Part shown: positions 14,512 to 36,475 of the stretch, piece by piece
Position numbering within the stretch: position 1 is the stretch's first letter
Layout: every line of letters starts with the position of its first letter
Assembly (NCBI RefSeq): GCF_003934165.1
Contig: NZ_RKST01000034.1
Location: 1 to 39,333, forward strand
DNA from: Borborobacter arsenicus
GTDB taxonomy: Bacteria; Pseudomonadota; Alphaproteobacteria; Rhizobiales; Rhizobiaceae
Length of the DNA: 39,333 nt
Reading direction: 5' to 3'
The notes under the pieces: model-generated
What the model saw: the letters and a program-made list of their open reading frames with translations, nothing else
Databases searched by the model: none
Told to the model about the DNA's origin: nothing
Translations under genes and position numbers: made by a program

Positions 14512-14559
14512 CAGGAAGCGGGCCGGGTGGCGGGAACGAGATTTGGGCCGCAGAATCAT
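14512..14559 (-). pseudogene. DUF1403 gene, 5' fragment
   Basis: ATG 14559 opens MILRPKSRSRHPARFL on the minus strand, nearly the same as the start of the intact DUF1403 gene at 34731 (MILRPKSLSRHPGPLP). Similarity at the DNA level extends upstream over the start region and intergenic palindrome (to about 14720) and stops at about 14512, next to the 19-bp repeat. Only about 16 codons remain. Confidence 0.6.
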
Positions 14560-14643
14560 CCTTGACAAGATGAATCAACACGGCGCTTTTAGCAACCGAT
14601 TTGCGTCATAACCGCCGCGCCTGTCGTCGTATGAAAATGAACG

Positions 14644-14670
14644 ATAATGTTGCCTTATCGATCGTTGTGG
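14644..14670. promoter_or_regulatory. Palindrome between divergent DUF1403 and integrase relics
   Basis: AACGATAA-N7-TTATCGatcGTT lies between the DUF1403 5' fragment (minus) and the integrase relic (plus). It corresponds in position and sequence to the perfect palindrome at 34624-34656 of the second module. Imperfect here. Confidence 0.4.
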
Positions 14671-14989
14671 TTCCTGGGGTGGAAATGGCCGCTGGCGCGC
14701 GTTTTTCATCGCCGGACAGCCGCGTTTAGGCGTCAGATCGACGCTAATTCGCGGTCATCGAGCCGACCGGGTTTGCCGCCAATTCCCGGACGCCTTGGCG
14801 AGAACATGGCCTCTCGCGTCGCGCAGAGCCACGAAAATCGTGTCAATCGTCCGCGCCATCGAATCTCGCGCACTATCGTGAGTGTCAGCTGACCGGAAAT
14901 CGTGAGACTCGCCGCCGTTTGTTCACTGACTCAGCCTTTCACGTCGGCTTGTTAGCGTAGTCTCACATGCGGCACGCTTCGCCGCCTCG
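14671..14989. other. Region upstream of integrase relic, no gene
   Basis: About 320 bases with no supported gene. The first 50 bases still resemble the intergenic part of the 34.6 kb module. Confidence 0.45.
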
Positions 14990-15369
14990 TGCCCGAGCAT
15001 ACTGTTTTTGGCTCTGCCGAGGCGTTGCGCCGCACCGAAATCACCGGCCTCGACTGCGGCGACCAGGCGCAGGACGGAGCGGGTGGATCGAGATCCTCAA
15101 CAAGGGGCATTGTGGCGTCTCTGCGGGGGTAAGACCGGCTAGTGCTGAGGTTGGGACCGGCTACGGCGGGGCCGATGCCACTGTCCGCTGGGGCTCGATA
15201 CCTGGCTAAAATTCCTCAAGATCCCACGGCCCGCTGTTTCTATGTGCAAAACAGTTCGTCCATGCCTCGGCCGAAAATGACCCGCAAATGCCAGCGCGGC
15301 CGCAACCACTTCCGCTTCAACCTCACCAAGGCGCCGAAACTTAGAGCCCCCTGCCCTGCCTGTTTAGAC
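14990..15369 (+). pseudogene. Tyrosine integrase, degraded
   Basis: Broken stretches match the intact integrase at 17123-18424: ALRRTEITGLDCGDQ (intact ALRRSEIVGLDYGRDQ), GWIEILNKG, TWLKF, and near the end MTRKCQRGRNHFRFNLTKAP (intact MTRKYQRRRDRFRVNLTKAS). The catalytic Tyr has become Cys, the His-x-x-Arg part is deleted and several frames are needed. It is the integrase half of the divergent DUF1403 relic module. Confidence 0.7.
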
Positions 15370-15390
15370 GGCCAGCGCATTGTAAAAACG

Positions 15391-15804
15391 TCAGAAATTC
15401 CACGGAGATGTGAGCTCGAGGTCTGTCGTCTTGAAGTCAGTCAGATTGCGGGTCGCCAAACGGCCGCCGTTCACCTGAGCGATCGCTGCAATCATGCCAT
15501 CGGGCGCTGACATTCCGCGTCCCTGGCGAGCGGCAGCACCCATGATTTCGCCATAGGCAAGCGCGGCGTCCTCGGTCAGGCCGAATATCCGGTCAGCAAA
15601 ACGACGCCGCCAGTCTGCCAATCCCTGCTCCAGCCGATTGGCGCGCTGGTCCGGCTTGATCTTCTGGATGCCGAAGGCGATCTCGGCGATGGTTACAGTT
15701 GGTAGCGCGAGTTCCGCATCGTACCGAACCAGCCATGCGAGCACTGCCTCGTTGGGCGCCTTCTTCAAGGTCTCGGACACGACATTGGTGTCGAGGAAAA
15801 TCAA
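15391..15804 (-). CDS. vapC: VapC family toxin (PIN domain)
   Basis: 137 residues. MIFLDTNVVSETLKKAPNEA carries the first acidic residue (LDTN) of the PIN nuclease. ALPTVTIAEIAFGIQ holds the second (E), and SAPDGMIAAIA and LATRNLTDF the remaining acidic positions. VapC toxins are Mg-dependent ribonucleases cutting tRNA or rRNA. The start overlaps the antitoxin stop by four bases (15801-15804). No damage, so likely functional. Confidence 0.92.
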   Translation of the reverse strand: MIFLDTNVVSETLKKAPNEAVLAWLVRYDAELALPTVTIAEIAFGIQKIKPDQRANRLEQGLADWRRRFADRIFGLTEDAALAYGEIMGAAARQGRGMSAPDGMIAAIAQVNGGRLATRNLTDFKTTDLELTSPWNF

Positions 15805-16049
15805 AGCTCGATGCCTTGATGGGAAGTGCGGCTTTCGCGGAGGATTGTTTCGAGATCGATATCGGTGCCGGATTGTGCTGCAAGACGCGCATAGAAAGCT
15901 GAAGCGGGTTCGCGCCCAGCCTCCCGGATTTCGTACGATTCGAGCGCGCGTTCAACCACATCGGCGATCGATCGATTTTCGCGGCGGGCAAGCCGGTGGG
16001 CCAAATCGCGCGCCTTGGAGCTACGGACAGAGAGTTGTGGTTCAGCCAT
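15801..16049 (-). CDS. vapB: VapB-type antitoxin
   Basis: 82 residues from ATG 16049 (GGAGG 5-6 bases upstream). MAEPQLSVRSSKARDLAHRL and then ARRENRSIADVVERALESYE is the ribbon-helix-helix-like domain of the PSK/VapB antitoxin group, and the C-terminal half (LETILRESRTSHQGIEL) would bind the PIN toxin. It is first in the vapBC operon. A clear housekeeping promoter lies at 16071-16099. Confidence 0.85.
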   Translation of the reverse strand: MAEPQLSVRSSKARDLAHRLARRENRSIADVVERALESYEIREAGREPASAFYARLAAQSGTDIDLETILRESRTSHQGIEL

Positions 16050-16070
16050 ATCGACCTCCATTTGAATGCC

Positions 16071-16099
16071 AATATAAACCTGCCTTGCTTCGCTATCAA
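16071..16099 (-). promoter_or_regulatory. vapBC promoter
   Basis: On the minus strand TTGATA (16099-16094), 17 bases, TATATT (16076-16071): a near-consensus housekeeping promoter 22 bases before ATG 16049. Confidence 0.6.
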
Positions 16100-16179
16100 G
16101 ATGGCAGATGATGGCATGCCGTTCCCGGTGGGTTCTTGAATTTGTTGAGATGCAGTTGGACAGTCACGCTTTCCATCAA

Positions 16180-16560
16180 GCGACCAGGCGGCCCAAGCGG
16201 TCGCGTCGGGCGCATGAAGCCGATATGCGGGCATATCCTCGATCATCTCCTGGACCGCTTGCAGCACCGCCTTCGTTGTCTTGTGGGCAGGATCGAGGCG
16301 GCCGAAGACACGGCTGAGTTCGGCAAGGCAAACGGCGGAGTGATGGCAGAGCCGATAGGTCAGGAGGTTATCGACCGTTTGGGGCCTGCGCCCGCAACAC
16401 ATCGAGATAAATGCTCGTGTCGAGAAGCAACGCACCGCCGATCGGCGCTTCGTCTCACGCCCACGACAGATCAGAATCGGCGCGCCGTTCCAACCCGGCC
16501 GTCAGCTTTTGCGGTTTCAGCGAGCGCAGCGCTCCCTCGAGATCAAATCCCAAAATCGAA
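16180..16560 (-). pseudogene. PIN-domain toxin (second VapC), stop codon, frameshift and truncation
   Basis: The reading goes FDLEGALRSLKPQKLTAGLE, RRADSDLSWA, then an in-frame TGA (16454-16456), DEAPIGGALLLDTSIYLDVL, then a one-base shift near 16391 into QTVDNLLTYRLCHHSAVCLA followed by ELSRVFGRLDPAHKTT and MIEDMPAYRLHAPDATAW. LLDTSIYLD and AVCLAELSRVFG are the PIN-domain acidic motifs. It ends abruptly at about 16180, before the last catalytic region. It follows the intact-looking antitoxin gene 16543-16833. Confidence 0.7.
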
Positions 16561-16833
16561 ATCCGCAGGGATGCTGCCCTTGCGACGCACAAGCCGGGCG
16601 CCGAAATCATCCTCAAGGGCCAGACGCCACAAAGCAAGCTCCAGGAACTCGGTGTCGGAGCTCACATGCGCACGCCTTTTGGCGGCCTCGATCAATTCCG
16701 AAGACACCCGGCCCGACGTGTTCTTCGCCGCCCCCAAAAGGCCAATGGCCTTGTCCTGTTCAAGCACCAGACGGTTACGCGTGAGGGCGATCCGCGCATC
16801 AATTTCAGCTGTTGTTGCGGTACGGACGGTCAT
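16543..16833 (-). CDS. Orphan antitoxin-like protein
   Basis: 96 residues from ATG 16833 (AAGGAG 8-9 bases upstream). MTVRTATTAEIDARIALTRN then RLVLEQDKAIGLLGAAKNTS, GRVSSELIEAAKRRAHVSSD, LELALWRLALEDDFGARLVR, ending RRKGSIPADFDFGI. It is helical and charged, and its position directly before a PIN toxin remnant argues for an antitoxin. The partner is broken, so it is an orphan. An inverted repeat over a TATATA box at 16849-16876 probably is its operator. Confidence 0.6.
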   Translation of the reverse strand: MTVRTATTAEIDARIALTRNRLVLEQDKAIGLLGAAKNTSGRVSSELIEAAKRRAHVSSDTEFLELALWRLALEDDFGARLVRRKGSIPADFDFGI

Positions 16834-16848
16834 CACGGCTCTCCTTGC

Positions 16849-16876
16849 GTTCAACGAGATATATAGATTGTTGAAC
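16849..16876 (-). promoter_or_regulatory. Operator/promoter of orphan antitoxin
   Basis: GTTCAAC and GTTGAAC are inverted arms separated by 14 bases that include TATATAT. The arms flank the presumed -10, as expected for an autorepressed toxin-antitoxin operon. Confidence 0.5.
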
Positions 16877-17122
16877 AGAAAGGAAGGACAGACGCCGTGC
16901 CATTGCCACATCATGTGCGGCTACCCGGCATTGGTCATGGCGCAAAAGCTGCGCAGCCGGTGCTTTGGCAGGATGAAACAGATCTCCGGGCTTCTTGATG
17001 CCCTTGCCGTGGGGTGGACAATTTCCTGCTGCGGCGGCACGTTGGATAGCATGGATTCGTGCCGCCGCCGGTCACAACTGAAATCCAATCGCTATCTCCG
17101 GGATTCAATGAGGCACTCCGAT
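16877..17122. other. Integrase upstream region, no gene
   Basis: About 245 bases between the orphan antitoxin control region and the integrase start. The frame of the integrase stays open upstream but without a family signal. No counterpart of the 34624-34656 palindrome was seen here. Confidence 0.4.
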
Positions 17123-18424
17123 ATGACCGATGATGACGACCTTCCCGACATCGTCGACGTCGTCATGCATATGGGCCAACAGACGGAAACGGCAGAAAAA
17201 GCCGACGAGGCCCTCCGTTATGGCTCCGGGCCCTTCGGGCGTTCGCAGTCCTTCGAAAGGTCCACCGGACCTTCCGATACGTTTGAAGGCGTATCGGACG
17301 CTCACCGTTCGTCGCTCGGAAAGCCAAATCATTGGCTTTCCGCCGGTGATGCCGACCACTCCTCCCCTGCCCTACCGGTGACCGCCGGCCAAGCGCAGGC
17401 ATACATGCCAGCGCATCTGGAAGGCCTCGCCGGCCGGGCGCGTGACTATGTCGAGGCGGCGAGCGCGGCCAACACCCGCCGCGCCTATGCCGCCGACTGG
17501 AAGCATTTTGCCGGCTGGTGCCGGCGGCAAGGCCTGGCAGTGACCCCCCCCGATCCGCAGGTCGTCGGCCTCTACATCACCGCGCTCGCCACCGGCGGTA
17601 CCGCAGCCACGGCGGCCGGCCACGCTGGGGATTCGGGCACGGGGGCGAAAAAATCCGTCGCCACCATCGAGCGGCGGCTGTCGGCGCTTGCCTGGAACTA
17701 TGCCCAGCGCGGCCAGCCCCTCGACCGCAAGGACCGGCACATCGCCACCGTCATGGCCGGCATCCGCAACACCCACGCCGCCCCGCCGCGGCAGAAGGAG
17801 GCGATCCTGCCGCAGGATCTGCTCGCCATGCTGGAAACGCTTGATCGGGCCAGCTTACGCGGCCTGCGCGACCGGGCCATGCTTTTGCTCGGCTTTGCCG
17901 GCGCCCTGCGCCGTTCCGAGATCGTCGGGCTGGATTACGGCCGCGACCAGACCGCGGACGGCAGCGGCTGGATCGAAATCCTCGACCTGGGCCTCCTGGT
18001 CACCCTGCGCGGCAAGACCGGCTGGCGCGAGGTCGAGATCGGCCGCGGCTCGGCCGACACCACCTGCCCGGTGGTGGCGCTCGAAACCTGGCTGAAATTC
18101 GCTAGGATCGGCGATGGCCCGCTGTTTCGCCGGGTCACCGGCCAGGGCAGACAAGTCGGACCTGACCGCTTGAACGCCCAGGAGGTCGCCCGGCTGGTCA
18201 AGCGCGCCGCGCTCGCCGCCGGGGTGCGCGGCGACCTCGCCGAAGGCGAGCGGGCGCAAAAATTTGCCGGCCACTCGCTGCGCGCCGGCCTCGCCTCCGC
18301 GGCCGAGGTCGACGAGCGCTACGTGCAAAAGCAGCTCGGCCACGCCTCGGCCGAAATGACCCGCAAATACCAGCGCCGCCGCGACCGCTTCCGCGTCAAC
18401 CTCACCAAGGCCTCCGGGCTGTAG
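17123..18424 (+). CDS. Tyrosine-type site-specific integrase
   Basis: 433 residues from ATG 17123 (GAGG about 9 bases upstream; ATG 17108 is the alternative). About 95 variable residues are followed by the SAM-like core-binding domain (ARDYVEAASAANTRRAYAAD, WKHFAGWCRRQ) and the catalytic domain. Visible catalytic residues: Arg in GALRRSEIVGL, His-x-x-Arg in GHSLRAGLAS, His in QLGHASAEM and the nucleophile Tyr in MTRKYQRR. So it looks active. The C-terminus (RRRDRFRVNLTKASGL) recurs in the relics at 14990-15369 and 34419-34528, which lie opposite DUF1403 genes; this copy has no DUF1403 neighbour. It probably recombines plasmid DNA at an unknown site. Confidence 0.9.
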   Translation: MTDDDDLPDIVDVVMHMGQQTETAEKADEALRYGSGPFGRSQSFERSTGPSDTFEGVSDAHRSSLGKPNHWLSAGDADHSSPALPVTAGQAQAYMPAHLEGLAGRARDYVEAASAANTRRAYAADWKHFAGWCRRQGLAVTPPDPQVVGLYITALATGGTAATAAGHAGDSGTGAKKSVATIERRLSALAWNYAQRGQPLDRKDRHIATVMAGIRNTHAAPPRQKEAILPQDLLAMLETLDRASLRGLRDRAMLLLGFAGALRRSEIVGLDYGRDQTADGSGWIEILDLGLLVTLRGKTGWREVEIGRGSADTTCPVVALETWLKFARIGDGPLFRRVTGQGRQVGPDRLNAQEVARLVKRAALAAGVRGDLAEGERAQKFAGHSLRAGLASAAEVDERYVQKQLGHASAEMTRKYQRRRDRFRVNLTKASGL

Positions 18425-18510
18425 CCGCCGGCCCCGCAATCAGCGGCAAAAAGCCCCCTTTCCTGCTCGTTTTGACCGCAGAATTGGCTTTGTCGAACTA
18501 ACCGAACACC

Positions 18511-19591: not shown

Positions 19592-19599
19592 AGCCCTGG

Positions 19600-20070: not shown

Positions 20071-21138
20071 TCAATTCTCCTTTGCAGACCCTCCCTGCCC
20101 CGTCCGCCTGAATTCGGCATGAAGCTGCGGCAAGCGCTCGACGAGATAATCGGCAAAGCCCTGCCCCGCACTTGCCGGTATGGTCAGGCGCATGGCCTGG
20201 CCGGCCTTAGACAATTCGCCGATCTGCCGGCCGCTGCCGTCTTCGATCCGCTTGCCGCCGGACCGGGCGCCGCCGCCCCTGCACCGTTCGGCCGCCTTCA
20301 GCCGCTCGAACACGAGCTGGAAACGGGCATCGCTGTCGGCTTCACGGAAGCTCTGGCGCGAGATCTCGTCACGCGCGAAGCCCGGGACGTCCTTGGCCAG
20401 CAATTCGCCCAATTTCAGCCAGCGCGGCCGCCCCGCCTTCGGCGCAGGGCCGATCGCCTGGACGATCGACAGCGGGATGTTTTCGGTGACCTGCAGCAGC
20501 CGCGACATTTCCGACTTGTGCACGGCAAGCGCGGCCTGTGCCGTGGCGCGATCGAAGCCATGGTCGAGCAGCGTCTTGGTGAAGAAGGCCCGCTCGATGA
20601 AGCTGAGCGCGCGGCGCTCGGCATTCTCCTTGCCCTGGGCGAGCGCGAGATCGACATCGGCAAGCTCGCGCACCACGGCGCGCACCGGGCGGCCGATGGC
20701 GCGCGCAGCCTGCACGCGGCGATGGCCATAGGCGATCTGGTAGAAGCCGCGCGCGGCTTTGTCCTTGTCGGGATGCGGCCGCACCAGGATCGGCACCTGC
20801 TGGCCATGTTCGGCCAGGCTGCGGGTCAGTTCCTGGAAGGCCTCGTCATTGTGGCCCCCTTCGCTGAGGCGGTCCAGGAAGGGCGAGCGCTCCAGCAAAG
20901 CGGGATCGAGCTCCACCACCTGCTCGCCTGCAGCGAGCGCCTCGCGCAGGCGCCGTGCTTCCTCCACTTCCTGCGACAGCGAGCCGAGCGACAGGCCCAT
21001 AGCCTTGACCGCACCGGATGCGGAGCGCCGGGCAGGCGCCTCGCCCAGATTTGCAGGCGCGGGCGTGGCAGCTTCGCCGCCGCCCTCTGCCGTTTCTCCC
21101 GCGAAGAGAGAACGAAGCCTGTCCTTGCGTGCATTCAT
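20071..21138 (-). CDS. repB: RepB partition protein (ParB-like), second locus
   Basis: 355 residues, full length for RepB. MNARKDRLRSLFAGE is followed by QVVELDPALLERSPFLDRLS, then the ParB nuclease-like motif QVPILVRPHPDKDKAARGFY and AYGHRRVQAARAIGRPVRAV. ALSFIERAFFTKTLLDHGFD then RATAQAALAVHKSEMSRLLQ is the helix-turn-helix region that binds parS. The C-terminal part (dimerisation) is intact to AKEN. It is encoded downstream of repA with a parS between them. No repC follows: an IS630 relic lies where repC should be. It is presumably a partition-only system. Confidence 0.93.
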   Translation of the reverse strand: MNARKDRLRSLFAGETAEGGGEAATPAPANLGEAPARRSASGAVKAMGLSLGSLSQEVEEARRLREALAAGEQVVELDPALLERSPFLDRLSEGGHNDEAFQELTRSLAEHGQQVPILVRPHPDKDKAARGFYQIAYGHRRVQAARAIGRPVRAVVRELADVDLALAQGKENAERRALSFIERAFFTKTLLDHGFDRATAQAALAVHKSEMSRLLQVTENIPLSIVQAIGPAPKAGRPRWLKLGELLAKDVPGFARDEISRQSFREADSDARFQLVFERLKAAERCRGGGARSGGKRIEDGSGRQIGELSKAGQAMRLTIPASAGQGFADYLVERLPQLHAEFRRTGQGGSAKEN

Positions 21139-21257
21139 GCTTCACCTCCATGCCGCAGATGATGATGCGGCAGGCCGTGACCAGGTGGATAAGAGCCGCA
21201 TGAAAAATTATGCGCGTCAGACGGCGAAGCCTTGCCGTGCAAGGGTTCCGGCGAAAA

Positions 21258-21273
21258 GTTGACAGCTGTCAAC
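21258..21273. promoter_or_regulatory. parS: parS site, repA-repB intergenic
   Basis: GTTGACAGCTGTCAAC is a perfect palindrome that fits the repABC parS consensus GTTNNCNGCNGNNAAC. It lies between repA and repB of the minus-strand locus. Confidence 0.9.
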
Positions 21274-21283
21274 CGCAGCCCGG

Positions 21284-22498
21284 TCATGGATTTCGCCCCC
21301 ATGATTGCAACATCAGCGCCTCGATCTCCGCATTCACCGCCGTCAGCGCCTCATAGGCACGGTCATAGGTCGCGCGATTGAAATTCTCCCGTCCCACCTC
21401 GTAGAGCGTCTGCTTGGTAAGGCCGGCATCCGACACGGCCGTCGATTTGAGCATCGGCGCGGTCAACACCCTCTCGCCGAACTGCGTGCGCAGGAAGCCG
21501 GCGATTTGTGTCTGCGGCCCATCATTGGGCTCGTAGCGCGTGATGAGGTAGCGCAGGAAATCGAAATTCAGCGCTCCGCCCGCCTCGCGCACCACCGACA
21601 ACAGATCCGATGTCATGAACAGGAACTGGCTCATCGAGGCCACGTCGAGCATCTGGGGATGCACGGTCACGATCACCGACGTCGCTGCGCAAAGTGCGCT
21701 CAAGGTCAAATAGCCGAGCTGCGGCGGGCAATCGATCACGACAACGTCGTAGTCGGCTGCCACTGTCGCAATCGCCTGCTGGACGCGAGCAAAGAAAAGA
21801 TCGCCCGCCTGACCTTCCGGCCGCCGCGCCAGATGCTGGGGGGTCGTATGCTCGAATTCCTGCAATTCGAGATTACCGGGCACGACGTCGAGCCCGTCGA
21901 AATAGGTCGCGCGGATCACCTGTCGGAGCGGCACCCGCTCCTCATCGTAGCGGATCGCGCCATAGAGCGTATCGTTGCCGGTCAGGTCGAGTTCCGGCTG
22001 ATAGCCGAAAAGTGCTGACAGCGACGCCTGCGGATCGAGGTCGATCGCAAGCGTACGGTAACCCTGCAAGGCGAGATATTGCGCCAGATGCGCCGTCGTC
22101 GTGGTCTTGCCGGACCCGCCCTTGAAATTGGTGACGGCGACGACCTGCAAATGCTCGCCAGCCTGGCGCCATTTTACATAGTGGCGGGCTTTGGCGCCGC
22201 CCTGATGCGACAGATATTGGCGCAGCGCATTGACGTCTGCGAGGGAATAGAGCCTGCGCCCCCCGGCAGTGATCTCCGGAGAGGGGCCGTCACCCGAAAG
22301 CGACAATTGCCGCAGATAACCGTCGCTCACTCCGATCAGCCGCGCGGCCTCACCGCTGGTGAAGGGTCGCAACGTCTTCAGCGCGGTCGGGGGAAACAAG
22401 CGGCCCCGCAAGGCGGCAAGCTGCGCCGATAGCAGTTCCGCGTCTGCCGCGATCTGCTGATCCGCCGCGATACTCATGTCTGCCGTAGTGTGTTGCAC
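21284..22498 (-). CDS. repA: RepA partition ATPase (ParA-like), second locus
   Basis: 404 residues. The N-terminal helix-turn-helix region (LRPFTSGEAARLIGVSDGYL followed by RQLSLSGDGPSPEI) is for operator binding. The deviant Walker A is NFKGGSGKTTTTAHLAQYLA, and DLDPQASLSALFGYQPELDL and DYDVVVIDCPPQLGYLTLSA are the Walker A' and B parts. The protein moves plasmid copies by ATP-dependent patterning with RepB/parS and represses its operon. GTG 22498 or ATG 22477 could be the start; neither has a strong ribosome site. It differs clearly from the other RepA at 27223-28434, as expected for compatible systems. Confidence 0.95.
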   Translation of the reverse strand: MQHTTADMSIAADQQIAADAELLSAQLAALRGRLFPPTALKTLRPFTSGEAARLIGVSDGYLRQLSLSGDGPSPEITAGGRRLYSLADVNALRQYLSHQGGAKARHYVKWRQAGEHLQVVAVTNFKGGSGKTTTTAHLAQYLALQGYRTLAIDLDPQASLSALFGYQPELDLTGNDTLYGAIRYDEERVPLRQVIRATYFDGLDVVPGNLELQEFEHTTPQHLARRPEGQAGDLFFARVQQAIATVAADYDVVVIDCPPQLGYLTLSALCAATSVIVTVHPQMLDVASMSQFLFMTSDLLSVVREAGGALNFDFLRYLITRYEPNDGPQTQIAGFLRTQFGERVLTAPMLKSTAVSDAGLTKQTLYEVGRENFNRATYDRAYEALTAVNAEIEALMLQSWGRNP

Positions 22499-22754: not shown

Positions 22755-22756
22755 TC

Positions 22757-23956: not shown

Positions 23957-23979
23957 ACGGCAATATTGCCAAGCATCGG

Positions 23980-27222: not shown

Positions 27223-28434
27223 ATGTTGCAGACTCAAAACGTATCGACGGCTGCCTCCTCTGATGCGCGGATATCTCTACATGCGCGCCAGCTCTCCATG
27301 CAACTTCAGTTGTTGCGGGAGCGCCTGTTTTCGCCGTCATCCCGGAAGATGCTAAAAACATTTACATCAGGCGAAGCCGCCAGTCTGGTCGGAGTATCGG
27401 ATGGCTATCTCCGCCAACTCTCGATTGATGGCAAAGGCCCCTCCCCCGAAATATCTTCGACGGGCAGGCGGTCCTACACGCTCGAGCAAATCCACGAACT
27501 TAGACACCACGTTGCATCGGTGAAGCCTAAGGACGCCCTGACATATCTGCCATGGCGGCGGCATGGCGAGAAGCTCCAGACAATTGCCGTTGCCAATTTC
27601 AAAGGTGGCAGCGCGAAAACGACCACGACCATCTACCTTGCCCAATATCTTGCTCTGCAAGGATACCGCGTCCTTGCGGTTGATCTCGATCCGCAGGCCT
27701 CGCTTTCGTCGATGTTAGGGGTGCAGCCGGAGTTCGATCTGCAAGAGGGCGACACGCTCTACGGCGCAATCCGCTATGATGACAAAAGGCGACAACTCAA
27801 GGAAATTGTGCGTAAGACGTACTTTGCGGGCCTTGATCTCGTTCCAGGAAACCTGGAGCTCATGGAATTTGAGCATGAGACCCCGACCGCGCTTATCGAA
27901 AAGAAGACACCCAACAGCGAAATCTTCTTCAGGCGTGTCGGCCTGGCGTTGTCCGAAGTCGAAGACAATTACGATATCGTCGTCATCGATTGCCCTCCTC
28001 AGCTTGGTTATCTGACGCTTGGGGCTGTTTGTGCTGCCACCAGTTTGCTGATCACCATCCATCCGCAGATGGTCGATGTCGCCTCGATGTCGCAGTTTCT
28101 GCTGATGACATCCGACTTGATGTCTGTTGTCCGCAAAGCCGGCGGCGATCTCAATCACGATTTCATCCGATACGTGATTACGCGGCATGAGCCGCATGAT
28201 GGTCCGCAGGCTCAAATTGTTGCGTTGTTACGCAATTTGTTCGGAAATGAAGTTCTCGCGGCGACCGTCCTGAAGTCGACGGCCATTGCTGATGCAGGTC
28301 TAACAAAGCAGACGCTATACGAAATCGAAAGGGGGCAGGTCCGTCGCTCAACATACGATAGGGCCATCGAATCTCTGGGGGCCGTCAATGGCGAAATCCT
28401 CGATGGTATCCGCAAGGTATGGGGGCGGGCGTGA
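27223..28434 (+). CDS. repA: RepA partition ATPase of the complete repABC operon
   Basis: 403 residues, ATG 27223 with AAGGGGAAA 4-6 bases upstream. N-terminal helix-turn-helix region FTSGEAASLVGVSDGYLRQL. Deviant Walker A NFKGGSAKTTTTIYLAQYLA, then VDLDPQASLSSMLGVQPEFD and DYDIVVIDCPPQLGYLTLGA. It partitions the plasmid with RepB/parS and represses the operon together with RepB. Similar in order to RepA at 21284-22498 but clearly diverged. It overlaps or touches repB. Confidence 0.96.
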   Translation: MLQTQNVSTAASSDARISLHARQLSMQLQLLRERLFSPSSRKMLKTFTSGEAASLVGVSDGYLRQLSIDGKGPSPEISSTGRRSYTLEQIHELRHHVASVKPKDALTYLPWRRHGEKLQTIAVANFKGGSAKTTTTIYLAQYLALQGYRVLAVDLDPQASLSSMLGVQPEFDLQEGDTLYGAIRYDDKRRQLKEIVRKTYFAGLDLVPGNLELMEFEHETPTALIEKKTPNSEIFFRRVGLALSEVEDNYDIVVIDCPPQLGYLTLGAVCAATSLLITIHPQMVDVASMSQFLLMTSDLMSVVRKAGGDLNHDFIRYVITRHEPHDGPQAQIVALLRNLFGNEVLAATVLKSTAIADAGLTKQTLYEIERGQVRRSTYDRAIESLGAVNGEILDGIRKVWGRA

Positions 28435-29417
28435 GCAGAAGGGATAAGCTGACAGGCATCTTTGCCGATACCTCACGAGAGTTGGCCGCGGCCAACTTTG
28501 CAGAAAATGACGCCGGAAGGATCTTGGCCGGCCCCGTACGGACGATGGGTCTAGCCCTCGATCGCATGGATCAGGAAGCCCGCGAATTACAGGCGGCCCT
28601 GGAGGCCGGAGAGAAGGTTGTCGAACTCGATCCTGCTTCTATCGACGGATCATTCATACGAGACCGTCTGGACGGCGATCCAGGTGAGGACAGTGAACTC
28701 CTGCGGTCGATCGAGGAAAATGGACAGGAAGTTCCCATCCTGGTCAGGCATCATCCTGATCTACAAGGACGCTATCAGGTTGCCTATGGCCATCGCAGAC
28801 TTCGTGCCGCCAGGATCCTCAAGCGGAAGGTGAGGGCGGTGGTTAGGCCATTGTCGGACGACCAGCTGGTTGTCGCGCAAGGCATCGAGAATACGGCAAG
28901 AAAAGATCTCTCGTATATCGAGCGAGCGATCTTTGCCTTGGGATTGGAATCCCATGGGTTCACACGTGATGTCATCATGCAGGCTTTGTCGACCGACAAG
29001 ACCGAGCTGTCGAAATTGCTCTCGGTAGCCAAAGCTATCCCGTCGCTTCTCGTTAAGGCGATCGGATCGGCACCAAGCGCCGGCCGCCGCCGATGGATGG
29101 CGCTCGCCGATAAGATTGCCGACCCGAAAGTGATGGAAGGCGTCCGTCTTGCGATTGGCAAGCCCGGTTTCGAAACCCTGGAATCAGACGAACGGTTCAT
29201 GATTGTTCTGGCCGAAGCGACCAGGAAACCGAAAGCGGAACCCACATTCAACGAATGGAAGCCAGACGGCACAAACGTCGCGGCAAAGATCAAAAACAAC
29301 GGGAAAGCCACCACGCTCTCCCTCATGGCTACCGGGACCGATCATGGTTTCGGAACGTATCTTATGGATCGGCTGGAAGACCTCTATGCCGATTGGAAAT
29401 CGAAGCAGGAGAACTGA
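28431..29417 (+). CDS. repB: RepB partition protein of the complete repABC operon
   Basis: 328 residues from GTG 28431, whose GTGA overlaps the repA stop; ATG 28419 is an alternative that would overlap repA by 16 bases. MSRRDKLTGIFADTSRELAA is followed by KVVELDPASIDGSFIRDRLD, GQEVPILVRHHPDLQGRYQV, AYGHRRLRAARILKRKVRAV (ParB nuclease-like domain) and LSYIERAIFALGLESHGFTR with the helix-turn-helix DVIMQALSTDKTELSKLLSV. It binds parS. Its own 5' part contains a second parS, so the LAAAN segment is encoded by the site itself. Confidence 0.95.
   Translation: MSRRDKLTGIFADTSRELAAANFAENDAGRILAGPVRTMGLALDRMDQEARELQAALEAGEKVVELDPASIDGSFIRDRLDGDPGEDSELLRSIEENGQEVPILVRHHPDLQGRYQVAYGHRRLRAARILKRKVRAVVRPLSDDQLVVAQGIENTARKDLSYIERAIFALGLESHGFTRDVIMQALSTDKTELSKLLSVAKAIPSLLVKAIGSAPSAGRRRWMALADKIADPKVMEGVRLAIGKPGFETLESDERFMIVLAEATRKPKAEPTFNEWKPDGTNVAAKIKNNGKATTLSLMATGTDHGFGTYLMDRLEDLYADWKSKQEN
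28481..28496. promoter_or_regulatory. parS: parS site inside repB coding sequence
   Basis: Second perfect copy of GTTGGCCGCGGCCAAC, 50 bases into repB, encoding part of Glu-Leu-Ala-Ala-Ala-Asn-Phe. Confidence 0.9.
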
Positions 29418-29425
29418 ACCGCAAA

Positions 29426-29478
29426 AGAAAAAGGCCCCCAAGCGACTTATCGTCGTGGAAGCCCTTCTCCGTAGTAGC
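29426..29478 (-). ncRNA. Counter-transcribed RNA (incA-type ctRNA)
   Basis: The promoter at 29485-29513 predicts a start near 29478. The RNA reads about 50 nt, then a G/C hairpin (AAGGGCTTCC ... GGGGGCCTT), then a T-run ending near 29426. Position, orientation antisense to the repC leader, and size match the ctRNAs of repABC plasmids, which repress repC and define incompatibility. Confidence 0.75.
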
Positions 29479-29484
29479 TGACTG

Positions 29485-29513
29485 AGAATCGCATTTCCAC
29501 GAATCAGTGTCAA
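29485..29513 (-). promoter_or_regulatory. ctRNA promoter
   Basis: On the minus strand TTGACA (29513-29508), 17 bases, GATTCT (29490-29485): perfect -35 and acceptable -10 at optimal spacing. Confidence 0.7.
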
Positions 29514-29574
29514 GAGTCGGTAGCCGTCGTTTTGGCGGGAAGATTTCTTTTGCCTGAAAGAAGGTGAAGGAAAA

Positions 29575-30843
29575 ATGGAGACGTATGTTGCAACGACGCC
29601 TTTCGGGCGGCGGCCGATGTCGCTTGCCTATTTGCAGGCACAACGGGTTTCTCGCGAGATCGCCGAAGGGAAAGTCATTGACAAGTGGAAGGCCTACCGG
29701 GACCTCTGCGAGGGAAAATCGATCATCGGAGTTAGCGACCGCGCCTTGGCAGTGTTGGCAGCCCTGTTGTCGTTCTACCCGGATACTGATCTGTCGGAAG
29801 AGACCGGTCTGATCGTGTTTCCGTCCAACAAGCAACTGTCGCTGCGGGCACACGGGATGGCCGATGCCACGCTACGCAGGCATCTGGCTGCCTTGCTTGA
29901 TTGCGGCCTGATTACCCGCCGTGACAGCCCAAATGGCAAACGCTTTGCCCGCAAGGGCAGGGGAGGGGAACTGGAGGATGCCTTCGGTTTCTCTCTCGCG
30001 CCGCTGCTTGCCCGTGCAGACGAGTTCGCCCAGGCCGCGGCGTGCGTTCGTGCCCACAACCGCGCGCTCAAGCTGATGCGAGAGCGGATCACCCTTCACA
30101 GGCGTGACATCGGCAAGTTGATCGAGGCGGCCGTCCAGGAGGGAGTGCCTGGCGATTGGAGGGGGCTGTGGCAGCGGTTCCGGGTCGTTGTGGACGGTAT
30201 TCCACGGCGGGCAACGGTTGATGCCCTGGAGCCGTTCCTGGTCGATCTGGCCCTGATCCGGGAAGAAATCGACATCCTGTTGGAATCTCACATAAATACC
30301 GTGAATCAGAGCGCCAATGAGTCTCAAAATGAGCGGCAGCAATCAGATTCAAACACCAACGACTCTACTACATTTGAACCAGCTTACGAAAAATGCGGGA
30401 GCAACATCGAACCTATCACACGATCAACCGAGAAACCGAGGAGCTATCCGCTCGGGCTCGTGTTGAAGGCCTGCCCGGAAATCATCGACTACGCCGTAGA
30501 TGGAATCGACAACTGGCGCGATTTCTGTGCTACCGCAGCGCAAGTGCGCGGCTACCTTGGGGTTTTGCCATCGGCATACGAGGAGACTTGCCACGTCATG
30601 GGCCACCAGGCCGCGGGAATAGTCATCGCCTGTATCTTGCAACGAGCGCAGCACATCCATTCGGCAGGCGGTTATTTGCGGGTCTTGACCAAAAAGGCGC
30701 GGGCAGGTGCATTTTCGGTCGGTCCGATGCTGATGGCCGCGCTGAAAGCCAATACACTTCCCCCAACAGGAGGGCAGGGGGGCCGATCGGCCGGTGCTGT
30801 GGTCGGCAGAAAGCGAGATTTTGCCTGTGTCAATCGCCTATGA
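29575..30843 (+). CDS. repC: RepC replication initiator
   Basis: 422 residues, ATG 29575 with GAAGGA 4-5 bases upstream. TTPFGRRPMSLAYLQAQRVS is the typical RepC start; GKSIIGVSDRALAVLAALLS, FPSNKQLSLRAHGMADATLR and RHLAALLDCGLITRRDSPNG then KRFARKG is the winged helix-turn-helix that binds the origin, and the C-terminal half (PLGLVLKACPEIIDYAVDGI, LPSAYEETCHVMGHQAAGIV) is also family-like. RepC is the essential initiator. In this family the origin lies inside repC; an AT-rich stretch at about 30285-30380 is the best candidate. Confidence 0.96.
   Translation: METYVATTPFGRRPMSLAYLQAQRVSREIAEGKVIDKWKAYRDLCEGKSIIGVSDRALAVLAALLSFYPDTDLSEETGLIVFPSNKQLSLRAHGMADATLRRHLAALLDCGLITRRDSPNGKRFARKGRGGELEDAFGFSLAPLLARADEFAQAAACVRAHNRALKLMRERITLHRRDIGKLIEAAVQEGVPGDWRGLWQRFRVVVDGIPRRATVDALEPFLVDLALIREEIDILLESHINTVNQSANESQNERQQSDSNTNDSTTFEPAYEKCGSNIEPITRSTEKPRSYPLGLVLKACPEIIDYAVDGIDNWRDFCATAAQVRGYLGVLPSAYEETCHVMGHQAAGIVIACILQRAQHIHSAGGYLRVLTKKARAGAFSVGPMLMAALKANTLPPTGGQGGRSAGAVVGRKRDFACVNRL
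30285..30380. other. Candidate origin of replication (oriV) inside repC
   Basis: A locally AT-rich segment within the otherwise GC-rich repC. Origins of repABC plasmids are known to lie in the AT-rich middle of repC. This is inferred from composition and family knowledge only. Confidence 0.5.
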
Positions 30844-32923: not shown

Positions 32924-32950
32924 ATGTCCAATGTCGGTTCGGAGATTCGC

Positions 32951-33244
32951 ATGACGTCTTCCCTTCTTGGTTTGGTTTGTCCTTCCTGCCGCATCGCGCT
33001 GGTCATGAGCGAGCGTCAGGGCATCGAGATCGACTATTGCCCGCAATGCCGTGGCGTCTGGCTCGATCGGGGTGAACTCGACAAGATCATTGAGCGTGCC
33101 AACAAGGAAGCGGCGCCCCAGCCCCAGGCGCAGCCTCATGCGCGGCCTCCGCTGGAGCGTGGGCATGACGACGACGATCGCCGCTCACACGGTCATCGAT
33201 ACCCCAAGCGCAGGAAGTCGTTCTTCGAAGAATTATTCGACTGA
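32951..33244 (+). CDS. TFIIB-type zinc-ribbon protein
   Basis: 97 residues from ATG 32951 (CGGAG about 7 bases upstream; ATG 32924 is possible). LVCPSCRIALVMSERQGIEI followed by DYCPQCRGVWLDRGELDKII is the zf-TFIIB motif (CPxC ... CPxCxGxWLDxGEL). A His/Asp/Arg-rich linker (GHDDDDRRSHGHRYPKRRKS) and FFEELFD end the protein, again typical of this small bacterial family, whose role is unknown. It is followed after about 100 bases by the Tim44-like gene on the same strand. Confidence 0.88.
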   Translation: MTSSLLGLVCPSCRIALVMSERQGIEIDYCPQCRGVWLDRGELDKIIERANKEAAPQPQAQPHARPPLERGHDDDDRRSHGHRYPKRRKSFFEELFD

Positions 33245-33346
33245 CCGCGCAAATCTGCACGAGATGGGCTATGCGCCTCCAATGCGCCACGACCGCTCGC
33301 CCGAGAGCACACAGCAGCCAAGACAGCATTCATTGAGGAATCGCCG

Positions 33347-34345
33347 ATGACGACTTCGCCTACCGTTCGATTTGCAACCCTGTTTGCGAGCCTGTTCCTG
33401 ATATTTTCCATGATGGCGATAGATCATGCGGAGGCGCGGCGCGGCGGCAGCTTCGGTAGCCGGGGCGTGCGCACCTTCCAGGCAGCGCCGCCCACACGGA
33501 CGGCGCCAACGCAAACCGCTCCGGTCGAACGGTCTATGACGCCCAATACCGGCACCAACGCAGCAAGCCGCCAACAGCCGGCCGGCGCGCAGCGCCCGGG
33601 CTTCATGAGCGGGTTTGGCGGGTCGATGATGCGGGGCCTGCTGTTGGGCGGCCTGATTGGTGTACTTCTGGGGCAGGGTTTTGGCGGGCTGGCCGGGATG
33701 TTTGGCTTTCTCCTCCAGGCGCTGCTGATCGGCGGCGCGATCATGCTGGCGGTACGGTTTTTCCGCTCGCAATCGGCGCGCACGCCGGCGATGGCCGGAG
33801 CTGGCCTCTCCAACGGCGCTCCGGGTTTCGGGCGCGGCAATACCCATCAGCGCGAAGCGACCAATGCTTCGGTATTCAGCATTCCGGGCATCGGCACGGG
33901 CTCTGGATTTGGCAGCAAGGTCGAGGCGGTCGCGTCGGAGGATATTACGCTGACCCAGGACGACCTCGATACATTCCAGCAGATGTTGACGGAGGTTCAG
34001 GAAGCGTTCGGGTGTGAAGACCATGGCGCGCTGCGCCGTCTGGTGACGCCCGAAATGGTTTCCTACCTGTCGGAAGAACTGGCCGACAACGCCCACAACG
34101 GCGTCCGCAATGATGTGTCGGATGTCAGTCTGCTGCAGGCCGATATTGCCGAAAGCTGGCGCGAGGGCGATCGGGACTATGCGACGGCGGCGTTGCACTA
34201 TTTGTCGCGCGACGTGATCCGCGAGCGTGCCACCGGCAAAATCGTCGATGGCGATGCCGACCAGCCAACGGAAACCACCGAACTGTGGACGTTCACGCGT
34301 CAGCAGGGCGCGGAGTGGAAGCTTTCGGCCATACAGCAGGCTTAA
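33347..34345 (+). CDS. Tim44-like domain membrane protein
   Basis: 332 residues. A membrane or signal segment (VRFATLFASLFLIFSMMAID followed by HAEARRGG) is followed by a Gly/Ser/Pro-rich linker, two short membrane segments (MMRGLLLGGLIGVLLGQGFG, LLQALLIGGAIMLAVRFF) and a C-terminal Tim44-like domain (DLDTFQQMLTEVQEAFGCED, GALRRLVTPEMVSYLSEELA, ETTELWTFTRQQGAEWKLSA). In mitochondria Tim44 links the import channel to Hsp70; bacterial versions are inner-membrane proteins of unknown role. The length is normal. Confidence 0.88.
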   Translation: MTTSPTVRFATLFASLFLIFSMMAIDHAEARRGGSFGSRGVRTFQAAPPTRTAPTQTAPVERSMTPNTGTNAASRQQPAGAQRPGFMSGFGGSMMRGLLLGGLIGVLLGQGFGGLAGMFGFLLQALLIGGAIMLAVRFFRSQSARTPAMAGAGLSNGAPGFGRGNTHQREATNASVFSIPGIGTGSGFGSKVEAVASEDITLTQDDLDTFQQMLTEVQEAFGCEDHGALRRLVTPEMVSYLSEELADNAHNGVRNDVSDVSLLQADIAESWREGDRDYATAALHYLSRDVIRERATGKIVDGDADQPTETTELWTFTRQQGAEWKLSAIQQA

Positions 34346-34418
34346 GGCGGGTCGCCAGAAAGTCGGCCCAGACGGTCTGGTGCGATCACGCCAGCGGGCT
34401 CGGGCAGGGGAGGGGCTA

Positions 34419-34528
34419 CAGCCCGGAGGCCTTGGTGAGGTTGACGCGGAAACGGTCGTGGCGGCGGTGGTATTTGCGGGTCATTTCGGCCAAGGTGTGG
34501 CTGAGTTGCTTTGCACATAGCGCCCGTC
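34419..34528 (-). pseudogene. Tyrosine integrase, C-terminal relic
   Basis: The minus strand reads AEMTRKYHRRHDRFRVNLTK and then ASGL with a stop, nearly identical to the end of the intact integrase (AEMTRKYQRRRDRFRVNLTK). One A is lost near the YVQKQLGH part at 34515-34528. The catalytic Tyr remains but the rest of the gene is gone. It is divergent from DUF1403 across a palindrome, mirroring the 14.5-15.4 kb relics. Confidence 0.7.
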
Positions 34529-34623
34529 GACCGCCGCACACGATTTCTCGTCGAGCTGAGCGTCGCTGGGCATTGGTTGCGGGTGTTTGATCGACGAGAG
34601 CGGCCATTTCGCGGCGAAAGCCA

Positions 34624-34656
34624 AACACGAGCGATAAAGATATTATCGCTCGTGTT
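34624..34656. promoter_or_regulatory. Perfect 14-bp-arm palindrome between integrase relic and DUF1403
   Basis: AACACGAGCGATAA, spacer AGATA, TTATCGCTCGTGTT: perfect inverted repeat. Its central AT-rich spacer and 14-base arms resemble an operator or a recombinase core site. A related imperfect palindrome lies in the equivalent place of the other module (14644-14670). Confidence 0.75.
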
Positions 34657-34693
34657 ATCAGAACGACAGGCGCGGCGGTTATATCCGGCAATA

Positions 34694-34790
34694 CTTGTCA
34701 AAAGCGCCGTGTTGATTCATCTTGTCGAGGATGATTCTGCGGCCCAAATCTCTTTCCCGCCACCCCGGCCCGCTTCCCGGAGCGACAACT
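34694..34790 (+). repeat. Inverted duplicate of 14512-14600 (DUF1403 5' region)
   Basis: The DNA around the DUF1403 start here is nearly the same as the reverse complement of about 14512-14600, including the upstream tcatcttgtc-aggatgattctg part. Similarity extends more weakly over the adjoining palindrome. Confidence 0.65.
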
Positions 34791-35750
34791 GCCACTCCGG
34801 CGGTCCTCGTCCCGACATGGCTGCGCCGCGCCGTGCCCGATGCACAAAGCTTCGCGAGAAATGACGTTGAGGATGTGGCGCTCGTTGCCGGCGCTGCCAT
34901 CGGCGCGCTCGATCAAGTGGTCCGCCGGCATGAGCGATGGGCCGGCGCCTGGCGCCAGCGGCTGGCGCTTTCGGCGGCTGTGATGACGGCAAAGCGGGTG
35001 GGGCGCATCGAGGAGGAGGCGGCCCTGCGCGATGCCGTGCTGTTGACAAAGCCCGGCGACGACGTCGGCCCCGCCGGCCGTATGCTCATGGCTTGGCGCC
35101 GGCTGGCTGGAATGCCTGCGGAGAAACTGCTGACCGAGGCGAGCATCAGCGCGGCAATGGATGACCTCGGCCTTGCACGTGACGCCGTGAGCGTGAGTGA
35201 TCTGACGGACGATCTTCGCCAGCTTTCCGCCGGCGCCGGGACGGTGGGAATGATGACCGGCGCCATCGCCATCGCTGAGCGCCGCGGCTATGGGCGCGCC
35301 CTTGGAGCCTGGTTCGCCGACGCCCTGCTGGCACAGCGGCTGGGCTGGGCGCATGCGGTGCCGCTGCTGGGTGCGGAGGTGACTGCGGGTATCGGTATCA
35401 GGCGTTTGCGCCGATCAGGAACCGGCATTGCGGCGGCGAGCATAGAGGATGAAGGCGACCGGGCGAAGAGTCAGCTTGCCGCTCAGACCCGGGCCGCATT
35501 CCGCGCGATTGATCTGTCGGCCGAGCTCGGGCGCCGATCGGAGCGGTTGCTCGCGGTTGCACCGAAGTTGCGTGCCCGGGCATCCGATCTTGTTGTCGAA
35601 AGGCTCCTGGCCGACGACGCGATCGTGGCCTCGGAAAAAATCGTCGGCATGAGCGACCGCGGCTTGCGCCGCCTGTTCGATCGGCTGGTGAGCTTAAACG
35701 CCGTGCGCGAACTCACCGGCCGCCATACTTTCCGCATCTACGGGCTGTGA
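34731..35750 (+). CDS. DUF1403 family protein
   Basis: 339 residues. LVPTWLRRAVPDAQSFARND then AIGALDQVVRRHERWAGAWR, QRLALSAAVMTAKRVGRIEE, EAALRDAVLLTKPGDDVGPA, GRMLMAWRRL are the conserved DUF1403 blocks (LD-VR, WRQRLAL, E-EAALRDA, PGDD-GPAGR). Mostly helical. The family is largely confined to rhizobial plasmids beside scpB and an integrase; no biochemical function is known. ATG 34731 is conserved between this and the 14559 relic; a TTG at 34722 is an alternative. The stop overlaps the scpB start (GTGA), so the two are translationally coupled. Confidence 0.85.
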   Translation: MILRPKSLSRHPGPLPGATTATPAVLVPTWLRRAVPDAQSFARNDVEDVALVAGAAIGALDQVVRRHERWAGAWRQRLALSAAVMTAKRVGRIEEEAALRDAVLLTKPGDDVGPAGRMLMAWRRLAGMPAEKLLTEASISAAMDDLGLARDAVSVSDLTDDLRQLSAGAGTVGMMTGAIAIAERRGYGRALGAWFADALLAQRLGWAHAVPLLGAEVTAGIGIRRLRRSGTGIAAASIEDEGDRAKSQLAAQTRAAFRAIDLSAELGRRSERLLAVAPKLRARASDLVVERLLADDAIVASEKIVGMSDRGLRRLFDRLVSLNAVRELTGRHTFRIYGL

Positions 35751-36475
35751 CGATCATGGCTGAGGCGACGCGCAGACGAGGGAAGGGTCGGCCAGATGAC
35801 CGTCGATCAGGCGATCGCCTGGTTGACCGAGAGTTGGATCATCTGCCGCCGGAAGCGCGCTGGCGCGAATGGATGCAGCGCGTCGAGGCAGCGATCTTCG
35901 CGGCCAGCGAGCCGGTCGGCCGTGAGACGCTGGCGCGCATCGTCGGCAAAAGCTGCAGCATTGACCTTCTGATCGACGACATCCGCGAGGAACTGCGCGG
36001 CCGACCCTACGACCTGGTCGCCGTTGCCGGTGGCTGGAAGCACCTGACCCGGCCAGCCTATGCCGACGCCATTCGTGCCGCTGTTGGAGGAGGCGAGAAG
36101 GCGGCCGAGCTGACGCCGTCTGAGGTGCTGGTGCTTATGTGCATCGCCTACTTTCAGCCGATCACACGCGGAGAACTGTCGTCGTTTTTTGGAAAGGAAG
36201 TGTCGCGCGACCTGATCGGCCAGCTGCGCGGCGCCAGCTTGATCGTTTCCGGTCCGCGCAGCCCAACGCCGGGCGCACCCTACACCTATGTCACAACCAA
36301 AGAGTTTTTGCTCGAGTTCGGCCTCGATACGTTGCGCGATCTGCCCGATGTCGAGGCGCTCGAGGATGCAGGACTGCTGTCGAAGGACAAGCTGCTGGCC
36401 GGGGACATTCCGGCGGCGCTAGGCCAAGGGGAGGGCGAAGAAGAGGAAGAGGTGGTTGAAGACCAAGTCTCTTGA
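35747..36475 (+). CDS. scpB: ScpB-like segregation/condensation protein
   Basis: 242 residues from GTG 35747 overlapping the DUF1403 stop; ATG 35756 is an alternative. ARWREWMQRVEAAIFAASEP and then VGRETLARIVGKSCSIDLLI, DDIREELRGRPYDLVAVAGG, WKHLTRPAYADAIRAA is the first winged helix of ScpB, and LTPSEVLVLMCIAYFQPITR, GELSSFFGKEVSRDLIGQLR, YVTTKEFLLEFGLDTLRDLP the second. The acidic tail (GEGEEEEEVVEDQ) is unusual. Chromosomal ScpB works in the SMC-ScpAB condensin; this plasmid version has no ScpA or SMC nearby and may act with host proteins or with DUF1403. Confidence 0.88.
   Translation: MTIMAEATRRRGKGRPDDRRSGDRLVDRELDHLPPEARWREWMQRVEAAIFAASEPVGRETLARIVGKSCSIDLLIDDIREELRGRPYDLVAVAGGWKHLTRPAYADAIRAAVGGGEKAAELTPSEVLVLMCIAYFQPITRGELSSFFGKEVSRDLIGQLRGASLIVSGPRSPTPGAPYTYVTTKEFLLEFGLDTLRDLPDVEALEDAGLLSKDKLLAGDIPAALGQGEGEEEEEVVEDQVS

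Follow-up and report, generated by a model that had tools for sequence, protein, structure and literature searches.

The stretch of Borborobacter arsenicus DNA considered here (39,333 nucleotides, contig NZ_RKST01000034.1; 'the window' means this whole stretch) contains two broken copies of a module in which a tyrosine recombinase gene and a DUF1403–ScpB gene pair diverge from a short palindromic site. The original prediction, made from the sequence of the window, had described one copy at 34.4–36.5 kb, with an integrase tail on the minus strand, a palindrome with 14-bp arms, and DUF1403 and scpB genes, and its mirror image at 14.5–15.4 kb, with a DUF1403 start on the minus strand, a related palindrome and an integrase relic on the plus strand. 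Both arrangements are present:

34419–34517, minus strand: relic of the 3′ tail of a recombinase (integrase) gene, covering positions 346–377 of 377 in the profile hidden Markov model; by tblastn (34511–34422) an 83% match to residues 325–354 of a 355-residue relative.
34624–34656, plus strand: decayed core site, a perfect inverted repeat (34624–34637/34643–34656, 5-nt loop) in which the class-A arms ACGAGCGATAA / TTATCGCTCGT (34627–34653) are kept but lengthened to 14 bp, the spacer AGATA being 5 bp and not 7.
34672–34710, plus strand: second dyad, with arms at 34672–34681 (GCGGCGGTTA) and 34701–34710 (AAAGCGCCGT) and 19 nt between them.
34731–35750, plus strand: gene for the DUF1403 protein (PF07183, 226 bits), with its ATG at the conserved MILRPK start; the open reading frame opens at TTG 34722.
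35747–36475, plus strand: gene for the ScpB-like protein (PF04079, 111 bits), overlapping the DUF1403 gene by 4 bp.
14512–14559, minus strand: start of a second DUF1403 gene, about 15 codons and then cut, as read from the sequence; tblastn finds no more DUF1403 sequence past it.
14580–14618, minus strand: second dyad, with arms at 14609–14618 and 14580–14589, spaced as elsewhere.
14637–14665, minus strand: intact core site, ACGATCGATAA.GGCAACA.TTATCGTTCAT, scoring 48 bits with the site model and without mismatches.
14685–14958, plus strand: opening codons of a recombinase gene (ATGGCC, 14685) and then sequence resembling an insertion end, as judged from side-by-side sequences.
14959–15342, plus strand: recombinase relic (tblastn).
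17123–18424, plus strand: intact tyrosine recombinase of 433 amino acids (PF00589), with R262, K297, H383, R386, H406 and Y415 (numbered without the start methionine).

The 34.6-kb copy has lost its recombinase and has a 5-bp spacer. In the 14.6-kb copy the site is kept, the recombinase is displaced, DUF1403 is cut and ScpB is lost. The remnant at 14.69 kb resembles an insertion at the same recombinase codon in two other loci (L019 and L023), and the recombinase at 17123–18424 is the probable partner of the site at 14637. This gene had been described as an intact integrase standing alone; it is intact, but its isolation may be only apparent, as the order integrase, toxin–antitoxin pair, site is a common one. 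Within the window the pattern of the 34.6-kb palindrome, with up to three mismatches allowed, matches only itself (0 matches in 100 dinucleotide shuffles), and the palindrome gives no match to the 29-bp site model at 12 bits. In the whole genome of this strain, zero-mismatch matches to the core are found only at C12:50088 and C27:14637, while 2–3 mismatches add three further places, compared with one for a control pattern. The dyad at 34672–34710 is likely, from its sequence, its spacing and its co-variation with DUF1403, to be a site for DUF1403 and ScpB, their operator, or both. A promoter scan of 34500–36600 found nothing, and so no promoter is claimed.

The first set of loci used for comparison consisted of six PLSDB plasmids, the best 80 of 234 GTDB loci and one extra copy from the window's own genome. 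Thirteen added plasmids (11 hand-picked among 50 rows distributed across 710 records, and 2 taken among the 60 top rows of another listing) widened this set to Rhizobiaceae, Aurantimonadaceae, Xanthobacteraceae, Methylocystaceae, Nitrobacteraceae and more Rhodobacterales. An out-of-sample set comprised all 18 DUF1403 modules above the cut-off outside the window's own genome, drawn from 297 genomes of the order in stretches of at most 7 kb; their DUF1403 proteins share 36–78% identity with their closest counterparts among the earlier ones. Left out of counts were L001 and L002, which duplicate L003 and the window, and, unless stated, the window itself. Many loci are truncated at contig ends.

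The core site lies before DUF1403 and is 29 bp long, made up of two 11-bp arms around an asymmetric 7-bp spacer. In a scan of 81 modules, the window counted in, the best palindrome has TAA/TTA edges in 69, with a 7-bp spacer in 67, 5 bp in the window and 6 bp in L037; the last is probably a chance match, since the site model places a 7-bp site in L037 too. The palindrome is conserved in its place, but the one at 34.6 kb is not typical in its form. The 67 modules, selected on the 7-bp spacer, have the consensus ACGAnCGATAA-TGCAACA-TTATCGtTCgT and also serve for the dyad spacing given below. The other 12 modules have no TAA/TTA-edged palindrome, and in some of these (L022, L048) the model still puts a site. 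The spacer takes 15 forms among the 58 distinct sites of the first set, all with AA at positions 4–5; three later loci (L102, L122 and L124) have GCGCACA, with CA in place of AA. The site is mostly about 77 bp upstream of the DUF1403 start, in constant orientation. Above 12 bits, the model has at most one match per locus in the first set and none in 3.9 Mb of shuffled sequence.

The site was found in 11 of the 14 modules on the added plasmids; the three siteless modules, of which L103 has two and L107 one, also lack a recombinase match in their stretches. In L107 (NZ_CP029209.1, an 858-kb plasmid) there is a core site at 28903, some 600 kb from the siteless DUF1403 copy. Out of sample, 17 of the 18 modules have a site above 10 bits (21–51 bits, with the model trained on the first set; 0 in 2.2 Mb of shuffled sequence), that of L113 being visibly decayed. 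The sole exception, L127, belongs to a 3.9-Mb contig, and its stretch gives no recombinase match. Both the gene order and the site thus recur across plasmids, in agreement with the proposal that the layout marks a real functional unit. A single match to the pattern is present in 14 of 16 complete plasmids and two matches in the remaining two, the second copy having 2 mismatches in each case; a reversed control pattern has no match in any of them.

The recombinase tends to co-occur with this site. A co-occurrence count was made for 85 modules with at least 2.5 kb of upstream sequence, allowing up to three differences from the site pattern; L090–L096, which are short or otherwise different, were excluded here and from the co-variation test. 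A site and a full, divergent recombinase are present together in 61 modules, a site without a full recombinase in 13, and no site in 11; none of the 11 siteless modules has a full recombinase. Nine of the 18 out-of-sample stretches contain one. The original prediction was held to stand or fall with the conservation of the palindrome and its position and with the co-occurrence of recombinase and DUF1403, and on both points it stands.

The module is found across Hyphomicrobiales and Rhodobacterales, often beside repABC: a RepA, RepB or RepC protein is present in the flanks of 55 of 88 loci, the window counted. DUF1403 is uncommon in genomes, exceeding the cut-off in 3 of 385 sampled from the class and in 18 of 297 from the order (the window's own genome counted in both), and occurs in 710 plasmid records. 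Some plasmids or contigs have two modules in opposite orientation flanking repABC, for example L055/L079, L072/L073 and L027/L085. Inversion of the DNA between such pairs is not supported, as arms and spacers differ in L055/L079 and L072/L073, and in six other inverted pairs only one site was found per pair. One multi-replicon genome, G677, has four sites on four contigs. Avoidance of equal spacers among the replicons of one strain was considered and rejected, since in G677 TGCAACA is found on two contigs and TGCAAGA on the two others.

The residues R, K, H, R, H and Y, which we take to be those of the tyrosine recombinase active site, are conserved in no fewer than 57 of the 58 recombinases aligned. 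A profile of 23 of these proteins gives 62 bits with TnpS of Tn4651, about 30 with Cre, about 29 with XerD and no match with ResD of F. TnpS is the closest of the proteins compared (hhalign E 1.5e-16) and is homologous to the module recombinase, which has the full catalytic set, and the module recombinase falls far under the Xer cut-offs (43 of 330 bits for XerD, 40 of 335 for XerC). In Cre/loxP of P1, XerCD/dif and cer, and ResD/rfsF of F, plasmid or chromosome dimers are resolved by a tyrosine recombinase at a core of inverted repeats around a short spacer; the module resembles these systems in its recombinase and in the form of its core. The spacer in these systems is 6 or 8 bp, whereas that of the module is 7 bp. 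That the recombinase could instead be an integrase of phage or island type, with the palindrome as its attachment site, is suggested by its Pfam Phage_integrase match and by its annotation as a site-specific integrase; however, the lack of a second site in the first-set loci, the single site in 14 of the 16 complete plasmids and the frequent proximity of repABC all speak against this, making it very improbable.

Beyond the core lies a second dyad, of the form GCGGCG(G/C)TTT...AAAGCGCCGC or TGTGCGGTTT...AAACCGCACA. Its GACA leader starts 11 nt past the core in all 67 modules, and in 62 of the 67 a distance of 19 nt separates its arms. The 11-nt distance is also constant, by eye, in the out-of-sample set. 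L120, a member of that set, has extra DNA between the core and DUF1403, and the dyad is present at both places.

Each of the two palindromes varies together with a different protein. Agreement between the two core arms is clearly higher within a module than after shuffling of arms among modules (9.5 versus 9.0 of 11; 0 of 2000 shuffles), and for the dyad arms it is slightly higher (8.30 versus 8.16 of 10; p 0.008). In the 61 modules with a full recombinase, those without one being left out, divergence of the core arms tracks recombinase distance at constant DUF1403 distance (partial r 0.56, a value reached in 0 of 1000 permutations), whereas at constant recombinase distance it does not track DUF1403 distance (0.05; 229 of 1000). 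The dyad behaves in the opposite manner, with a partial r of 0.64 for DUF1403 (0 of 1000 permutations) and 0.08 for the recombinase (183 of 1000). When each protein is assigned to the class of the nearer of two reference proteins, core and recombinase classes pair as 46 A/A, 11 B/B, 4 B/A and 0 A/B (n=61). Dyad and DUF1403 classes (n=79) pair as 68 I/I and 8 II/II, with one crossed in each direction and one without assignment. Core class and DUF1403 class, on the other hand, occur in all four combinations. Proximity is a poor explanation of the link between core and recombinase, because the core adjoins DUF1403, while the distance from recombinase to core is bimodal: in the 54 first-set modules with a full recombinase it is 46–337 bp in 25 and 722–4933 bp in 29.

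These comparisons bear on whether the palindrome is an operator or a recombination site, both of which the original prediction had allowed. As an operator or RNA hairpin of the recombinase gene it would be suitably placed in the short-gap modules, about 20 bp upstream of the recombinase start (in L006, for example), and in the window it is a perfect dyad. A hairpin loop, however, requires neither asymmetry nor a fixed sequence, whereas the conserved asymmetric 7-bp spacer and the TAA/TTA edges fit the core of a tyrosine recombinase, and an operator or hairpin is accordingly improbable. Since its arms vary with the recombinase rather than with DUF1403, a core site of this enzyme is the likelier identity of the palindrome.

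The TnpS/TnpT–rst system of Tn4651 (pWW0) resembles the module in that recombinase and helper genes are divergent, with the site between them. Both have two pairs of inverted repeats between the divergent genes, as rst is described in the available part of one account (PMC7157771). By our own reading, the pWW0 intergenic region contains GATAAAATAA-TGGAGTG-TTATTC, also with a 7-bp gap. TnpT differs in having a KfrA_N domain and a coiled coil where the module has DUF1403 and ScpB, and it shows no similarity to either (hhalign E 0.6 and 0.3). Furthermore, Tn4651 is a transposon of the Tn3 family whereas the module is found on plasmids near repABC, and no Tn3 transposase is annotated in 19 plasmid stretches read for annotated genes, for which the PLSDB gene tables are incomplete.

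The intact module is thus, with fairly good confidence, read as a resolution system of repABC plasmids. A recombinase, one oriented core, an accessory dyad in constant phase with it, a helper operon and a position near replication genes together form the anatomy of such a system, and a single cis site and a plasmid-coded recombinase are present on the backbone, as in plasmid multimer resolution. Resolution of multimers or cointegrates would be the simplest use of the module, and the role in plasmid resolution that had been suggested for it is supported as the best reading of the sequences. The tyrosine recombinase would bind the two 11-bp arms of a single core site and exchange strands across the asymmetric 7-bp spacer. 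Two directly repeated sites in a dimer or cointegrate would then recombine, releasing monomers that can be distributed to the daughter cells at division. DUF1403 and ScpB, expressed from the divergent operon, are envisaged to act as a helper complex at the second dyad, a fixed distance beyond the core, where they may also repress their own promoter. This complex would make the reaction directional or selective, in the way that TnpT assists TnpS at rst.

A tyrosine resolvase carried by repABC plasmids is an idea already in print. A study of Sinorhizobium plasmids (PMC10194956) reports, in its accessible part, a Cre-like tyrosine recombinase and toxin–antitoxin genes downstream of repABC, for which multimer resolution is suggested, and cites RinQ, a serine recombinase near repABC; the term ScpB is missing from its main text and no site is described in that part. 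A further paper on repABC, a tyrosine recombinase and multimers deals with chromosome fusion (PMC12153318). In a search that left most subscription journals outside, no paper mentioned DUF1403 and none joined repABC, ScpB and an integrase; site, dyad, DUF1403 and ScpB as one system were not found in the literature searched. A serine recombinase is often present near the tyrosine module (L006, L008, L010, L028, L035, L050, L059, L070 and others), and many of these plasmids may therefore have two resolution systems.

Structure prediction suggests what kind of protein DUF1403 may be. The models of the window's protein and that of L085 (mean predicted local distance difference test scores of 66 and 74) both match Fic proteins best. 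For L085 the first 14 PDB matches are all Fic proteins, with E down to 1.9e-4 and TM up to 0.63; for the window Fic proteins also come first but weakly, with a best E of 0.045. DUF1403 is thus predicted to have a Fic fold like that of the class II Fic proteins (SoFic) but without the Fic motif, HPFxxGNGR being found in 0 of 48 DUF1403 proteins. Fic genes are present near the module in L004 (2418–3521), L008 (2949–4052), L009 (4946–5557), L024 (4423–5523) and L105 (10666–11784). DUF1403 shows no profile similarity to neighbouring Fic proteins, the likeness being one of fold only. Its C-terminus resembles HTH_13 weakly and under the curated cut-off (E 2.8e-4 in L009, 0.012 in the window), a likeness absent from the DUF1403 proteins of L003, L008 and L085. 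An open reading frame after the Tni genes of L008 (11200–12253) is presumably a DUF1612 protein with an HTH_13 end.

The ScpB domain is clear from PF04079, though its 66 bits with TIGR00281 lie under the cut-off of 89, and it has relatives in the PDB (1t6s, 3w6j, 2z99 and 4i98). Contig C3 of the window's own genome encodes a third ScpB (169 bits). Near the module of L102, in Methylocystis parvus, there is a second but shorter ScpB-like gene (9110–9469), and L103, from Pseudosulfitobacter, has two DUF1403–ScpB pairs on the same strand (8962–17070) with no site or recombinase match. The condensin-like role once proposed for ScpB finds no support: the annotation of the 19 plasmid stretches, with the same incomplete gene tables, lists neither SMC nor ScpA. 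DUF1403 and ScpB may instead be DNA-binding helpers. More specifically, and rather tentatively, a pseudo-Fic DUF1403 that has lost the enzyme motif could form with a stand-alone ScpB a DNA-binding accessory complex that restricts the TnpS-like recombinase to direct repeats on one plasmid. If true, a condensin subunit and a pseudo-Fic protein would have been put to use in site-specific recombination, and this would account for the fact that replicons sharing a spacer within one strain, as in G677, are not simply fused.

Several points weigh against the module as a single resolution system. A class-B core is found with a class-A-like recombinase in 4 of 61 modules. Within class A the correlation of arms with recombinase is weak (0.18), and for the spacer there is none, so that much of the arm–recombinase signal comes from the split between the two site classes. 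The link between dyad and DUF1403 could arise from adjacency or autoregulation alone. The GTDB loci used were the best-scoring ones and are mostly Mesorhizobium. By the stricter test of TAA/TTA edges L016, counted above as sited at up to three mismatches, has a recombinase without a site. Finally, 24 of the 85 modules have no full recombinase inside 6.5 kb, and in 17 of these 24 DUF1403 and ScpB look unbroken, which is the chief hint that the pair may have a use of its own. DUF1403 and ScpB might then be a separate segregation or copy-control pair that lies beside a resolvase by chance, with the dyad as their operator only; the dyad is directly upstream of the DUF1403 start codon, and ScpB is elsewhere a condensin subunit. 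An operator alone, however, would not need a constant distance of 11 nt from the core, and the occurrence of every combination of core and DUF1403 class also counts against such a pair, which is on balance unlikely, albeit a serious contender.

The long gaps between recombinase and core are occupied in a characteristic way. In 28 of the 29 (the exception being L009) they contain genes like tniABQ or like one of seven toxin–antitoxin representatives. The latter include RelE, helix-turn-helix, TacA and one PIN toxin above Pfam cut-offs, a second PIN-like protein and the GNAT partner just under the cut-off, and one presumed antitoxin without a family. In the F plasmid, too, a toxin–antitoxin pair directly adjoins the recombinase gene. 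Toxin–antitoxin pairs likewise adjoin the res sites of Tn3 transposons, according to the part of PMC7157771 available.

In nine loci (L005, L007, L023, L049, L101, L108, L119, L121 and L128) tniA and tniQ are on the recombinase side of the core, tniQ always being closest to the core. L037 has a tniA fragment on that side, on the opposite strand, and five further loci have tni genes past ScpB. As judged from the position of IRo relative to tniA, it is the tniA end and not the IRo end that is closest to the recombinase gene here. In L007, candidate transposon ends with a target duplication of 4 of 5 fall inside the opening codons of the recombinase gene, at 27 bp from the core, and enclose tniABQ; in the other seven loci tried, a simple inverted-repeat search gave ambiguous ends or none. 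Transposons of the Tn5053 family are known to hunt res sites, with their IRo end closest to the resolvase gene (PMC7765201, part available), and the likeness to these res-site hunters is therefore inexact. The module could also be a resolution cassette belonging to Tni (Tn5053/Tn7-like) transposons, in which serine and tyrosine resolvases are common (PMC8649781, as far as accessible), and tni genes or fragments were found in 12 loci of the first tni survey as well as in L119, L121 and L128. Most modules, however, have no tni match in their available flank, and the candidate ends in L007 exclude the core and most of the recombinase gene, so that this explanation is very improbable.

The remaining features of the window concern its neighbouring genes:

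15391–16061, minus strand: toxin–antitoxin pair, with a PIN toxin (15391–15804, PF01850) and an Rv0623-like antitoxin (15801–16061, PF07704).
20071–22498, minus strand: first repABC unit, with repB (20071–21138, TIGR03454) and repA (21284–22498, TIGR03453).
27223–30843, plus strand: second repABC unit, with repA (27223–28434), repB (28419–29417) and repC (29575–30843).
13318–14130, minus strand: DDE transposase (PF01609) adjoining the truncated DUF1403 start; a perfect 55-bp inverted repeat lies at 13358–13412/14335–14389.

The repC gene of the first unit was not found, the only tblastn matches to repC in the window being at 29575–30801. Each module copy is near repABC genes of its own, an arrangement similar to the inverted pairs of other plasmids but decayed and with two sets of rep genes. 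Since this 39-kb contig has two divergent rep gene sets, with no repC detected in the first, the window is probably a fusion of two plasmid backbones, joined head to head and each with its own module.

Plasmids of the repABC type are carriers of many accessory genes of Alphaproteobacteria, and the literature searched says little about how these large, low-copy replicons stay monomeric. With a 29-bp core, a dyad and three named genes now defined, the maintenance of monomers becomes a question that can be tested directly. The module also provides a functional proposal for DUF1403 and a recombinase–site pair with natural specificity classes, and it would extend the rule that toxin–antitoxin genes and Tni transposons collect at resolution sites to the site of a plasmid tyrosine recombinase.

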